A stretch of 39,437 nt of DNA from Alphaproteobacteria bacterium (lineage in GTDB: Bacteria > Pseudomonadota > Alphaproteobacteria > SMXS01): the NCBI GenBank assembly GCA_004356955.1, contig SMXS01000009.1, positions 1 through 39,437 on the forward strand. The letters run 5' to 3'. A program made the position numbers and the translations under genes. Below the pieces are notes generated by a model. The model did no database searches and had not been told where the DNA came from. It worked only from the letters and a program-made list of their open reading frames with translations. Shown here piece by piece: positions 14,087-39,260 of the stretch (the stretch's first letter is position 1; every line of letters begins with the position of its first letter).

Positions 14087-14620
14087 CTACCTGGTCCGAA
14101 GCGCCTCGCGATCGAAACTGATGTCGTCTGCGCCGCGGCCCCCCATGATGGTGCCTTCCATTGTTTTCAACACATCGTCGGCCGCAGGCTCTGAGCGTGC
14201 AAAGTCGACCACTTCAGTCCGGTGGGCGATCTTCCATGTGCCAAACCGCTTTTCATAGCGGTCGACATAACGTCCGGCGATGATCAGGTCTGTTTTTTCG
14301 TCGCCATCTTCAAGCCGATGGAAGGCGTTGAAGTACACCTCGCCAAAGGCCACGTCGTTTTCGACTTCGACTTCAATTTGGGCCTGGCCGATCATGTGAT
14401 GGTTCGATGCGTGGGGGGCAAGGGCACCCTGGGCAAACTCGACAAATTCGTCGGGGCCGCCCTGGAAAAACCCATAATCCAGCGTCGCATCATCAAAAAA
14501 CACCGACCGGTGCATCACCGGGTCCAGGCGATCTTGGCCGCGCATATAGCGGCAAAGCAATTTGTCGATCTCCATGCGGGCGATCAATTCGTCGATTTGG
14601 CGGTCTTTGCGTAGTTCCAT
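14087..14620 (-). CDS. NTF2-like / SnoaL-fold protein
   Basis: 177 residues from ATG 14620, with a strong GGAGGG ribosome-binding site. The fold is indicated by the N-terminal helix with DKLLCRYMRGQDRLD and the C-terminal strand pair AGRYVDRYEKRFGTWKIAHRTEVVDF, typical of SnoaL-like proteins of the cystatin-like NTF2 superfamily. Members include ketosteroid isomerases, dehydratases and ring-cyclising enzymes, but many have unknown reactions. Two other genes of the same fold lie in this window (35111 and 38157). It precedes the thiolase by about 110 bases on the same strand. Function stays at the family level. Confidence 0.8.
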   Translation of the reverse strand: MELRKDRQIDELIARMEIDKLLCRYMRGQDRLDPVMHRSVFFDDATLDYGFFQGGPDEFVEFAQGALAPHASNHHMIGQAQIEVEVENDVAFGEVYFNAFHRLEDGDEKTDLIIAGRYVDRYEKRFGTWKIAHRTEVVDFARSEPAADDVLKTMEGTIMGGRGADDISFDREALRTR

Positions 14621-15489: not shown

Positions 15490-16674
15490 TTACTGGTTGG
15501 ACCCTGCGAACAGTTTGTTCAGGTCTTCATCAGCTGTTTCGATAATGCGGTCAACCCAACTGTGGAATTTCTGTCCGCCGCCTTCGTTGCGACCAAACAG
15601 AACGTGATCCTTGTGGCCAGTTTCCAGCGCTTTTTGCAGGCGCAGGCCGGTTGCGTAATCTTCTTTCTCCACAACATATTCCAGCAGCGTGAACTGCTTG
15701 TCGGCCTCGACCTCTTGCTCGGGCGTCGGCTTGTGTTCCATCATGTAGTTCTGCACCGTATACGATTCGCCAGGCGTCTTGCCGGGGAACAATTGCGAGA
15801 GCATGACAGAGCGACCACCGCCTTCAAACGATGCGATGGAGACATGAGGGAATACGGTCCATACACCCATCATCATCAAATTGGTGTCCCACTCGTCCTT
15901 GGGCATGTCTTCCAGACCAATCATGAATGGTGAGGGGGACGATACGCGCTGGTGTGGCCCCCAGCTGTAATAGAGCGCCTGATTGGAAATTTCTGTCCCG
16001 AAGGTTTTGCTGTGCAGGACCGGCAGATGGTAAAGGTCGAGGTAACCGTCATAGGCGACCTTCCAATTCGGCCCGCGCAAGGTGCGCTGGTCGTGCATGT
16101 GCCATGTTTCAAACCCGAAATTGGCCAGTAGGTCGTCATAGCCAGACAGGAAAGCGTCAAAGTCGATGTCTGAATTGGGGCGCAGGCAAACCCAGATCAG
16201 TCCCGCGCGCTCGATGACGGGCAGAGGCACAAGGCCGTATTCGCTTTTGTCGATCTCGCCAAAGTCTTCTTTCGAGGAAATGCCGATCAGATCGCCGTTC
16301 TGGTTGTAGGTCCAGGCATGGTATGGGCAGACAAACCGCTTGGCATTGTCGCAGCCCAATTCGACCAGGGCGGCACCGCGATGACTGCACATATTCATAA
16401 AGGCATGAATTTTGCCTTTGGAATCACGGTTGATCAGGACAGGCACGCCCACGGCTTCCATGGCCTTATAGTCGCCAGGGTTGCGCAGTTCTGCCGTCGT
16501 CGCCAAAAGCAATGGCACGCGCTTGAAAATCTTTTCAACCTCGGCTTCATATTGGTCCTGTGCGTAATATTTGGTCGCCGGCACTTTGAAGACATCAGGT
16601 TCCATATCGATGGTACCCGCTTTGGAATGAGCGATGTTGTGCTCAGTCATTTTGATGAGCTGTTCTCTGGACAT
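15490..16674 (-). CDS. Rieske non-heme iron oxygenase, alpha subunit
   Basis: 394 residues from ATG 16674 (GGAGAAG upstream). The N-terminal Rieske [2Fe-2S] domain has Cys96-x-His98 in MCSHRGAAL and Cys116-x2-His119 in VCPYHAW. The C-terminal catalytic domain contains GYLDLYHLPVLH, giving bridging Asp213 and iron ligands His216 and His221. Such terminal oxygenases hydroxylate or dihydroxylate aromatic or alicyclic rings with O2 and electrons from a ferredoxin/reductase. No small beta subunit is present, so it is probably an alpha-only (homotrimeric) type. A ferredoxin gene lies 169 bases upstream on the same strand, but that ferredoxin is a 7Fe type more often linked with P450s. Substrate unknown. 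Confidence 0.93.
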   Translation of the reverse strand: MSREQLIKMTEHNIAHSKAGTIDMEPDVFKVPATKYYAQDQYEAEVEKIFKRVPLLLATTAELRNPGDYKAMEAVGVPVLINRDSKGKIHAFMNMCSHRGAALVELGCDNAKRFVCPYHAWTYNQNGDLIGISSKEDFGEIDKSEYGLVPLPVIERAGLIWVCLRPNSDIDFDAFLSGYDDLLANFGFETWHMHDQRTLRGPNWKVAYDGYLDLYHLPVLHSKTFGTEISNQALYYSWGPHQRVSSPSPFMIGLEDMPKDEWDTNLMMMGVWTVFPHVSIASFEGGGRSVMLSQLFPGKTPGESYTVQNYMMEHKPTPEQEVEADKQFTLLEYVVEKEDYATGLRLQKALETGHKDHVLFGRNEGGGQKFHSWVDRIIETADEDLNKLFAGSNQ

Positions 16675-16843
16675 AGTCTTCTCCGTTCTTCGTCGTTGGC
16701 GCATCCGTGGTTATGGATGGTCCACAATCAATCTGTTGGGCGCAACTCTATTTGTAATGGCGCGCCTGGGCAATGGTTCAGATCATAAAGGTAACATGGG
16801 CTGAAAAGCCCGAGAACTATAGTTTTTGAGAGGTAAAATCGCT

Positions 16844-18759: not shown

Positions 18760-18785
18760 GGGCGACAACAAGAAGGCTCAGCAAA

Positions 18786-20153
18786 ATGAGTACACAAGAC
18801 CAGTCAGCCGGCAAAGACAGATCGGCCATTCGCAAATTCACCCGCGACATCACCGTCGGCCGCAATGGCGTGCCGGTCGCGCGGGCTAAAACCAGCGGCG
18901 AGGGCTTTCGGACCTACGAAATTCACCAGCGCATGCGGCCGGGCGAAACCACCGCCAAAATGCGACCCAACCGGTTGATATCTGAAGAGTTTTTGACAGA
19001 CCCCTATGCGCCACTCGAGGTGTTGCGAGAGAATTATCCCTGCTATCGGGACTGGATTGGCAATTCATACTGGGTCACACAATATAATGATGTGACATCG
19101 ATATTTGTCGACGATGCCAATTTCGAAACGCGCCCGAAAAGCTGGTTCTATAGTATTGAAGGCTTTGGCCGCGATCTGCGGGGCGAAATTCCGGTGCTTT
19201 CTGCCCAGGCCAATCGCATTGACGAAAACATCGACGCCATTGCCAGCCAGATTGTTGACGATATGGCTGCCTCAGACGCACCGGACTTGGCGCTTGATCT
19301 GGCGGCCCGTCTACCGATGGAATTGCTGGCCTGCGTGCTGGACCTGCCCAAAGATGATGTGCCTTTATTTGTTGAACGTTATTGGGCCATGCAGCGCGGC
19401 TATCATTGGGAACCAAAGTCTGAACAGGCGGGCCTTGCGGCCATTGAAGACCTGACTGCCTATTTTGATCCCATAATAGAGGCGCGTCGGGCCAACCCCG
19501 GGGACGACATGGTCTCGGCCATTGCCACGCTCGATCTGGACAGTGGGCCCGCCACCGGGGCAGACGTCGTCGCCACATTGCTGGAGGCCGATCATGAAAG
19601 CCTGCATGGCGGCCTGGCCAATATGTGGTTCCTGCTGCTGACCAATCCGGACCAGTTGGCCATCATCAAAGATGATCGTCGGTTCATCAAATTTTCCTGG
19701 TTCGAAACCTTGCGTCATTCCACCCCGGTGGTGACGGCCAAGCGTTTTGCTCTGCACGAGGTCGAACGGTTTGGCCTGATGCTGCCCGAAGGTGCCATGA
19801 TGAATTGCTCGGCGGCTGCGGCCAATCGTGACCCCCGTATCTATGAAAACCCGGACAGCTTCCTGGTGACGCGTAAGGATATGTGCCAACGCGAACCCCG
19901 TGGCATGTACCGGGCAGACGGCCTGCCTGCGGGCATAACCTTTGGCATGGGCCCCCCGTCAAAGCACCCGGCAGTGCCAGAAGACCGGCCCCGGTCGCTT
20001 TATGCCATCAACAAAGATATCGCAGTCAAGGCCAGCAATATTCTGTTGGACAAGATGCCCAATATTGGCCTGAAATCAGGCGCTTCGCCAGAATTGCGCG
20101 CGTTACGCAACGGCGAGATGCATACTTGTTGGCATTTACCGGTTGAATTTTGA
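18786..20153 (+). CDS. Cysteine-less P450-like protein (probable non-heme pseudoenzyme)
   Basis: 455 residues from ATG 18786 (GAAGG upstream). It aligns along its length with the P450 just before it: DPYAPLEVLRENYP matches NPYPYYKIMRDHYP, NMWFLLLTNPDQ matches NMWYLLLQHPDQ, and the ExxR motif ETLRHSTP (307-314) is kept. However, the heme loop reads FGMGPPSKHP, with Lys393 where the heme-ligating Cys should be. The I-helix motif is EADHESLHGG instead of GGGGETT, and the C-helix HRRRR is absent. No other frame restores a Cys, and the gene has no stop or frameshift, so it is not simple decay. Heme-free P450 homologues are known as partner proteins of glycosyltransferases (EryCII/DesVIII type). 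A role as partner of the adjacent P450 is inference. Confidence 0.88.
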   Translation: MSTQDQSAGKDRSAIRKFTRDITVGRNGVPVARAKTSGEGFRTYEIHQRMRPGETTAKMRPNRLISEEFLTDPYAPLEVLRENYPCYRDWIGNSYWVTQYNDVTSIFVDDANFETRPKSWFYSIEGFGRDLRGEIPVLSAQANRIDENIDAIASQIVDDMAASDAPDLALDLAARLPMELLACVLDLPKDDVPLFVERYWAMQRGYHWEPKSEQAGLAAIEDLTAYFDPIIEARRANPGDDMVSAIATLDLDSGPATGADVVATLLEADHESLHGGLANMWFLLLTNPDQLAIIKDDRRFIKFSWFETLRHSTPVVTAKRFALHEVERFGLMLPEGAMMNCSAAAANRDPRIYENPDSFLVTRKDMCQREPRGMYRADGLPAGITFGMGPPSKHPAVPEDRPRSLYAINKDIAVKASNILLDKMPNIGLKSGASPELRALRNGEMHTCWHLPVEF

Positions 20154-22881: not shown

Positions 22882-24684
<1,803 letters not shown>

Positions 24685-35110: not shown

Positions 35111-35605
35111 ATGGATGCGCTGCAGCGTCTGGTAGACATTGAAGAGATCAAACAATTAAAGGCACGCTATTGGCGGTGCATCGATACCAAGTCATTTGAC
35201 GAGTTGAGCACCGTATTTGCTGAAGACGCCATCTTTGATTTTCGCCAGGCCGTGCGGGACCCCGTTTCTGGCACGCCTGATGGCGTTACCGAGCAACCAC
35301 CGGTAAAGGGCCTTTCGAATATCATCCGCGAAGTGGGGGACGCCCTGAAGGTGGCCCAAAGCGCGCATCAGGGCCATATGCCAGAGATCGAAATCCTGAC
35401 TGACACCACGGCCAAGGGCATGTGGCCATTCGAGGATTACGTGCTCAACGGTGATTTTGAATTCAAGGGTTATGGCCATTATGTCGAGGCCTATGAAAAA
35501 ATTGAGGGCGCCTGGCGCATCAAACATTCCGAGATCACCCGACTACGGGTTGTCATCCTGCAACAAGGTGGGGAGAGTTCCATGTTCCGCAGCGACGAGG
35601 CTTAG
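35111..35605 (+). CDS. NTF2-like / SnoaL-fold protein
   Basis: A 164-residue protein of the cystatin-like NTF2 superfamily: the N-terminal helix LVDIEEIKQLKARYWRCIDT and DELSTVFAEDAIFDFR match SnoaL_4 proteins, and FKGYGHYVEAYEKIEGAWRIKHSEITRLRV is the closing strand set. Related folds act as dehydratases or isomerases on steroid-like and polyketide rings. Its stop is followed after three bases by a 3Fe-4S ferredoxin gene, so the two are co-transcribed. Expression is probably under the long inverted repeat just upstream. Reaction unknown. Confidence 0.82.
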   Translation: MDALQRLVDIEEIKQLKARYWRCIDTKSFDELSTVFAEDAIFDFRQAVRDPVSGTPDGVTEQPPVKGLSNIIREVGDALKVAQSAHQGHMPEIEILTDTTAKGMWPFEDYVLNGDFEFKGYGHYVEAYEKIEGAWRIKHSEITRLRVVILQQGGESSMFRSDEA

Positions 35606-38091: not shown

Positions 38092-38156
38092 ATTATTACT
38101 GATTTTTGTGGAGGTCGCTTTTCTGCCAAGCTATCCTGCTGCCGAGGAGAGGGATC

Positions 38157-39260
38157 ATGAACTCAGAAGATTTTGCGACCAGGCTGCAGCGCTTTGTGGA
38201 TACGTCGGAAATCAGCCAGGTCATTGCCAATCACAGCCGCGGTATTGATCGCGGCGACCCGGCCATATTCGACGACGTGTATCATCCTGATGGTGACGTA
38301 GCCTATGGCTTTTTTGATGGCAGTGCGGTCGAATTTGCACAGGTGGTGACAGGCGGTGCTGATGATACGCCGGGCACCCTGCACCGGCCATCGAATATCT
38401 GGGTCGACGTGGACGGCGACACCGCAAAGTCAGAATCCTATGTGATTGTGTACACGCATGCAGCAGATGAAACGGGCAGCACAGGCGGCGAGACGACCTT
38501 TATTGGTGGGCGCTATCTTGATCGGCATGCACGGCGCGATGGAATCTGGAAGATGACCCATCGCACCTATGTGATGGATTGGAACATCAATAAACCTGGC
38601 ACGGGCAGCGCGATGCCAGGCTTTGACGCATCGCCCAGAATACAGGGGCTGAAGGGCCCGTCAGATTTCAGTATCGAATTTTTGAAGGCAGTGGGTAACA
38701 GCGATATCGCGGAAGAGGACGGAACCATGGTTGAGATATCTAAGAGTTTGATGGATCGGGCAGAAGTGGCCTTTGCCAAGCAAGATATTCACGAGCTGAT
38801 AATGGGCCAGGCTCGGGCCATCGACAGGGCCGATGTGGTCCTGTTCAAATCGCTGTGGTTCGACGACGCGACCGTTGATGTTGCTGGTGTGCAGGGCCCG
38901 GCGCTGGACTGGGTCATTGAAATTCTCGATCAGACCAAAGATATGAAGCGCATGGCCCATTCAGTGGCCAATGAGTGGATCAAGGTCGATGGCGATACCG
39001 CGCGCAGCGAAAGCTATCTGATCGCTTTTACGACGGTTGCGGGCGAGGACGGCAACCAGGATACCTTGACGGGTGGGCGCTATCTCGATGCATTCGAGCG
39101 GCGAGACGGTGTCTGGAAATATATGCACCGGGCCTTTGTGCAGGACTGGGAAGTCACCCAGCCAAGCAGCGACAAAAGTGACGATGGCATGTTGGCGACC
39201 CTGACAAATCGGGCGGCAGCCTATCCGGATGATGCTGTTTACGGGTTTTGGAACCCCTGA
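38157..39260 (+). CDS. Tandem NTF2-like / SnoaL-fold fusion protein
   Basis: 367 residues from ATG 38157 (GAGGAGA upstream). Two homologous SnoaL-like domains follow each other, about 1-160 and 190-345. Matching pieces are RGIDRGDPAIFDD with RAIDRADVVLFKS, VDGDTAKSESYVI with VDGDTARSESYLI, and GRYLDRHARRDGIWK with GRYLDAFERRDGVWK. This looks like an internal duplication, so one chain can form the dimer usual for the fold. An in-frame ATG with AGAGGACGG before it, near 38728, marks where a separate second gene could have begun. Related folds isomerise or dehydrate steroid- or polyketide-like rings. Reaction unknown. Confidence 0.82.
   Translation: MNSEDFATRLQRFVDTSEISQVIANHSRGIDRGDPAIFDDVYHPDGDVAYGFFDGSAVEFAQVVTGGADDTPGTLHRPSNIWVDVDGDTAKSESYVIVYTHAADETGSTGGETTFIGGRYLDRHARRDGIWKMTHRTYVMDWNINKPGTGSAMPGFDASPRIQGLKGPSDFSIEFLKAVGNSDIAEEDGTMVEISKSLMDRAEVAFAKQDIHELIMGQARAIDRADVVLFKSLWFDDATVDVAGVQGPALDWVIEILDQTKDMKRMAHSVANEWIKVDGDTARSESYLIAFTTVAGEDGNQDTLTGGRYLDAFERRDGVWKYMHRAFVQDWEVTQPSSDKSDDGMLATLTNRAAAYPDDAVYGFWNP

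Follow-up and report, generated by a model that had tools for sequence, protein, structure and literature searches.

What can a cytochrome P450 homologue without a heme cysteine do when it lies directly behind a complete P450? The question is raised by the gene termed B in a 39,437-nucleotide stretch of alphaproteobacterial DNA (contig SMXS01000009.1), which was analyzed at its full length and is termed the window. Bacterial P450s are regarded as single-polypeptide catalysts needing only redox partners, and automatic annotation labels B as "cytochrome P450" and so hides it. The reading preferred here, with a probability of about 0.6 and based on comparative sequence analysis, is that the adjoining P450, termed A, has B as an obligate pseudoenzyme subunit that holds no heme. 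If true, a P450 that has its own heme-free subunit of P450 fold, present in two phyla, would be a new architecture in the superfamily and would account for any failure of such P450s when they are expressed without the partner.

P450 signatures in genes A and B

The positions of A, B and their diagnostic elements are collected in Table 1. Gene A contains the heme motif FGVGPHLCPG, an ExxR motif and the I-helix sequence GGGGETT. The B frame opens with an ATG preceded by a Shine-Dalgarno-like AAGAAGG and has no internal stop, confirming the intact frame and the positions given in the preliminary description. The distance from the A stop to the B start is -4 in many Acidimicrobiales pairs (ATGA or GTGA overlaps) and +1 to +37 in most of the remaining pairs, with a maximum of about +78. 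The 4-bp start/stop overlaps suggest translational coupling.

Table 1. Coordinates of the A-B locus, of elements within B and of related genes (window positions unless a locus is named)
Feature	Position	Strand	Basis or remark
Rieske ring-hydroxylating oxygenase	15490..16704	-	Context, outside the A-B unit
A, complete cytochrome P450, 482 aa	17311..18759	+	PF00067 84.9 bits; all P450 signatures
A-B spacer, 26 bases	18760..18785	+	Between A stop and B ATG; carries AAGAAGG
B, heme-cysteine-less P450 homologue, 455 aa	18786..20153	+	ORF, PF00067 score, AF2 model, Foldseek
B-specific N-terminal arm RTYEIHQRMR (R42-R51)	18909..18938	+	Conserved in both phyla, before the P450 core
B I-helix segment E267-A-D-H-E-S-L-H-G275	19584..19610	+	Alignment to A, AF2 model
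B ExxR, K helix, E307-T-L-R310	19704..19715	+	Invariant among B orthologs
B meander segment RKDMCQREPRGMYRADGLPAG (363-383)	19872..19934	+	Most conserved B stretch; within shared 15-residue insertion
B remodelled heme loop FGMGPPSKHPAVP	19941..19979	+	K393 codon at 19962-19964, the cysteine position
A', stand-alone paralog	L110 5982-7925; L111 2078-3547; G005:C13:60713-61990		No B

The PF00067 score of B narrowly passes the cut-off (24.2 bits compared with 22.8), identifying it as a homologue within the P450 superfamily. A profile-profile comparison aligns A and B over 358 columns, most of their length, with a probability of 100 and 30% identity, in agreement with the earlier alignment of the two proteins. 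The position of the heme cysteine is occupied by Lys393 (GMGPPSKHP in B compared with GVGPHLCPG in A), and in the 34 readable orthologs it is Lys, Arg, Ile, Val or Thr, followed at position 394 by His, Tyr, Trp or Asn. B thus fails the FxxGxxxCxG cysteine-ligand test and, judged by its sequence, is a P450 homologue outside the definition of a heme-thiolate P450. The His/Trp-xxx-Arg motif of the C helix is absent because the stretch corresponding to EHRRRR in A is shortened, and the heme-loop His is likewise missing. The retained ExxR, the Lys and the loss of the C-helix His/Arg had all been correctly described beforehand.

The I helix had been described as having no acid/Thr pair, and this is wrong because E271-S272 occupies the acid/alcohol position. 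ADHESLHG of B aligns with GGGETTRG of A, and most orthologs have Glu-Thr at this point, the acid at 271 being Glu in 30, Asp in three and Gln in one of the 34 readable sequences and the alcohol position 272 being Thr in 31, Ser in two and Ala in one. The residues preceding the pair do differ, the glycine run of A being replaced by (E/D)xDx in B. In the same 34 orthologs D269 is invariant, position 267 is always acidic and R320, which aligns with the proposed propionate Arg R350 of A, is also invariant. C367 is invariant in the readable orthologs as well.

The constancy of C367, together with the retention of ExxR and R320, could be taken to mean that B binds heme through another ligand, for example C367 or H394, and might pass electrons to A. 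We regard this as very unlikely. C367 lies in the meander some 26 residues before the normal ligand site, and as a shifted ligand it is improbable because A carries a Tyr at the homologous point of the shared insertion. The residues at 393 and 394 vary as described above, the C-helix His/Arg and loop His are lost, and D269 stands at what we take to be, in P450s generally, the place of a small residue against the heme.

Occurrence, descent and conservation of the A-B pair

Searches located 36 B genes in 29 genomes from the alphaproteobacterial family of the window, Gammaproteobacteria and Acidimicrobiales, the last including Ilumatobacteraceae; two phyla are represented. These are genomes of uncultured bacteria, mostly metagenome assemblies. 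All three genera of the window's family contain B. The heme cysteine is absent from all 35 copies that can be read at the loop, the 36th entering an assembly gap there, and every one of the 36 genes follows an A immediately and in the same orientation, as had been predicted beforehand. In a set of 298 Acidimicrobiales genomes the same 15 yielded both A and B, a sixteenth A being truncated downstream by a contig end, and in ten genomes of the window's order 15 of 15 paired-type A genes have a B. No B was detected in the other 397 genomes sampled from the window's phylum, and two of the 343 genomes of one gammaproteobacterial order contain one; since scoring was confined to the few top first-look candidates of each genome, single misses are possible in these counts. 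B is therefore rare and patchy in distribution.

The constant position of B directly behind A in all 36 cases indicates, at the level of gene order, that B probably serves that P450 as a dedicated partner and has no catalytic role itself. The same linkage would also be expected were B the catalyst of the next pathway step.

In the window's order the only A-like genes without a B nearby are the A' genes of three genomes (G005, G006 and G009), with approximately 64% identity to A. They differ from all paired A sequences at 20 otherwise near-invariant positions, and several of the changes surround the C helix, whose His becomes Asn, the ExxR-HS motif and the next strand (H131N, H341C, R350K, H351N and H378R). 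The possibility that they represent an A that lost its B was rejected; A' is a separate paralog because in G005 it coexists with two A-B pairs.

In maximum-likelihood trees A forms a single clade (support 100/99) and B another (100/100), and the two are sisters (94/90), a relation that holds among the P450s sampled and with a long stem branch to B. A 15-residue insertion in the meander is common to A, B and the two nearest groups of ordinary P450s. The family has two types of A, A1 and A2, often arranged in the order A2-B-A1-B, and the B proteins paired with them split into matching groups. The A-B unit has been duplicated as a whole, because the B groups mirror the A1/A2 duplication. Distances among A sequences and among B sequences correlate only moderately (r 0.59), which speaks against the partner reading. 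The cysteine loss in B probably occurred independently of that in the TIGR04515 activators, because the nearest relatives of B among the sequences in the tree are heme P450s that have the long meander.

Nei-Gojobori dN/dS for most of the closest ortholog pairs, defined by dS below about 0.7, lies at 0.08-0.17 in B and at 0.02-0.07 in A. Pairs at greater distance (e.g. L052 compared with L051) give higher ratios in both genes, and between the window and its congener dS is too large for a trustworthy value. These ratios are well below 1 and B is therefore under purifying selection, as first supposed, approximately two to four times weaker than that on A in most pairs. The most diverged Acidimicrobiales B genes (L102 3523-5031 and L107 7706-8965) are accompanied by A genes that are ordinary or nearly so, which makes them suited to telling the essential features of B from the dispensable ones.

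Conservation within B is unevenly distributed. Residues 370-379 of the meander (EPRGMYRADG) are near-fixed, with a mean entropy of 0.13 bits compared with 1.24 overall, and strong conservation is also seen at residues 40-49 in the N-terminal arm and in the strand around 320-330. The old cysteine position varies freely.

These data bear on the suspicion that B is a decaying pseudogene or an assembly error, to which the preponderance of metagenome assemblies and the faster evolution of B relative to A might point. The 36 copies come from independent assemblies and are intact except where an assembly gap interrupts one and a contig end another, motifs are invariant across phyla and dN/dS is low, and this explanation is already refuted. 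Nor is B a lone mutant among homologues that retain the cysteine. The combination of adjacency in all 36 cases, low dN/dS and the lack of any cysteine-retaining ortholog means that the heme-free partner of a P450 put forward in the preliminary description is well supported by comparative genetics.

Structural models, gene neighbourhood and the proposed role of B

The AlphaFold2 model of B, calculated from 34 alignment rows, has a P450 fold with a pLDDT of 77 and a pTM of 0.79. The best 50 Foldseek matches are all P450 entries and the best PDB match is CYP134A1 (3nc3), with a TM score of 0.68-0.71. The I helix is broken at residues 268-270. Confidence is low at residues 1-48 and 367-398, which cover most of the hyperconserved arm and meander; stretches that are conserved yet disordered in the modeled monomer fit elements that become ordered on a partner, and a shallow alignment can also lower confidence at both places. 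A single-chain prediction of A read through into B is of low confidence, with a mean pLDDT of 58.7 and a pTM of 0.42 from a shallow alignment (five paired rows plus B-only rows); the input came from naturally occurring loci in which A, its stop codon and B share one reading frame, the stop being treated as a residue.

Were the preferred reading correct, the starting point would have been the tandem duplication of an ancestral P450 whose meander loop was long. One daughter gene, A, would have remained an ordinary heme-thiolate monooxygenase. In the other copy the cysteine ligand and the C-helix His/Arg would have disappeared, acidic residues would have taken the place of the I-helix glycine run, and two conserved surfaces found only in B, the arm RTYExxQRxR and the meander CQREPRGxYRADGLP, would have become fixed. 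A and B would form a complex with the contact made by these two surfaces, and B may stabilize A or control its folding, substrate entry or redox-partner docking. The heterodimer of the preliminary description, in which B would modulate or stabilize the active P450, is likewise an inference.

The charged residues of the former heme pocket argue against B being a partner alone, as the invariant E/D267, D269 and R320 exceed what a pure scaffold would need. B may instead have turned the P450 fold to a new use, with heme-independent catalysis or a ligand site of its own that employs the acidic I-helix residues of the former heme pocket, and act on the substrate or product of A or sense a ligand. 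The acidic or amide residue at 271, the retained acid/alcohol pair and the purifying selection on B agree with such a role, which we consider the main rival, a possible but distinctly less probable explanation. A separate enzyme would have no need to stay with A when other genes of the cluster are exchanged, the arm and the meander are more strongly conserved than the pocket, and no complete catalytic or metal-binding set is invariant, because in one clade H274 gives way to Ile and a single ortholog has Pro there. A metal site formed by E267, E271 and H274 was rejected as a general feature of B, since five orthologs carry Ile or Pro in place of the His. The two ideas could be combined in a two-subunit P450 whose heme-free subunit has acquired a new acidic-pocket site that binds an effector or carries out a coupled second reaction, a proposal of low probability.

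The window neighbourhood is one of oxidative catabolism, with the Rieske oxygenase, a thiolase, an enoyl-CoA hydratase, a Baeyer-Villiger-type monooxygenase and a TonB receptor. Three genomes of the alphaproteobacterial family carry a Rieske homologue a short distance downstream of A-B and in the same orientation. A convergent SDR gene follows A-B in 13 of 17 Acidimicrobiales loci, and same-strand SDR genes follow it in three of four gammaproteobacterial loci. The frequent presence of a Rieske or SDR gene beside the pair might suggest that B activates one of these enzymes in the manner of EryCII and that its linkage to A is incidental, and P450-derived proteins that activate enzymes other than P450s are known (PMC3391682). 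This is highly improbable, as the neighbor varies between clades while the A-B unit is constant, and the duplication of the pair copied A and B and not the Rieske gene. The obligate partnership of B with A is the reading retained.

Several other features of these loci are recorded here. The flavin monooxygenase at 22882-24684 of the window matches the PtlE-type (neo)pentalenolactone D synthase, which is a Baeyer-Villiger enzyme, with 842 bits (cut-off 1100), and its homologues also occur near A-B in gammaproteobacterial loci; these observations hint at a terpenoid- or alicyclic-type substrate. Carotenoid-oxygenase (RPE65) genes are found near A-B in Gamma- and Alphaproteobacteria (L037 1473-2882, L038 1435-2808 and L045 6969-8747). 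A single ORF at window positions 38106-39260 contains two SnoaL_4-domain stretches, and more SnoaL-like genes are present at 14087-14620 and 35111-35605. Genome G000 has about 15 to 18 P450 loci in 2.2 Mb, and most related genomes have 30 or more P450 candidates, making the family unusually rich in P450s.

Comparison with known systems

The best family match of both proteins is TIGR04538, represented by the cyclodipeptide oxidase CYP134A1 (CypX), with 176 bits for A and 118 bits for B. CYP134A1 is a heme enzyme, and both scores are far under the TIGR04538 cut-off of 500 bits. The preliminary description drew on the glycosyltransferase activators EryCII and DesVIII as an analogy; B lies outside their family, TIGR04515, scoring 71.1 bits compared with a cut-off of 343. 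A dozen ordinary P450s of the same genome outscore B on this model, and all 34 B orthologs match it less strongly than they match TIGR04538. Membership of B in the EryCII/DesVIII family was consequently rejected on the score. No glycosyltransferase was detected by Pfam scan among the 29 window proteins, nor among ten scanned neighbor proteins of related loci.

In B and in these activators alike a P450 fold without a heme cysteine belongs to a small-molecule gene cluster and bears an additional conserved N-terminal element before the P450 core. The extra N-terminal helix of EryCII contacts the glycosyltransferase, which EryCII stabilizes and activates (PMC3391682); the arm of B is comparably placed, by analogy only. 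The partner gene differs, being a P450 for B and a glycosyltransferase for the TIGR04515 proteins. On the reading preferred here B would act as they do, as a heme-free P450 fold serving a partner, here the neighboring P450. If true, this would be a second independent case, beside EryCII, of the P450 fold used as a protein-binding module.

In the open-licence literature a search for complexes of a P450 with a pseudo-P450 yielded only the glycosyltransferase activators, and no earlier report of a P450 partnered by a heme-free P450 homologue was found there. To our knowledge no pair of pseudoenzyme and active-enzyme paralogs has been described in the P450 superfamily. As in such pairs generally, the A-B unit places an inactive paralog under purifying selection beside an active one, and it displays the obligate co-occurrence and adjacency expected of a heteromeric pseudoenzyme/enzyme pair.
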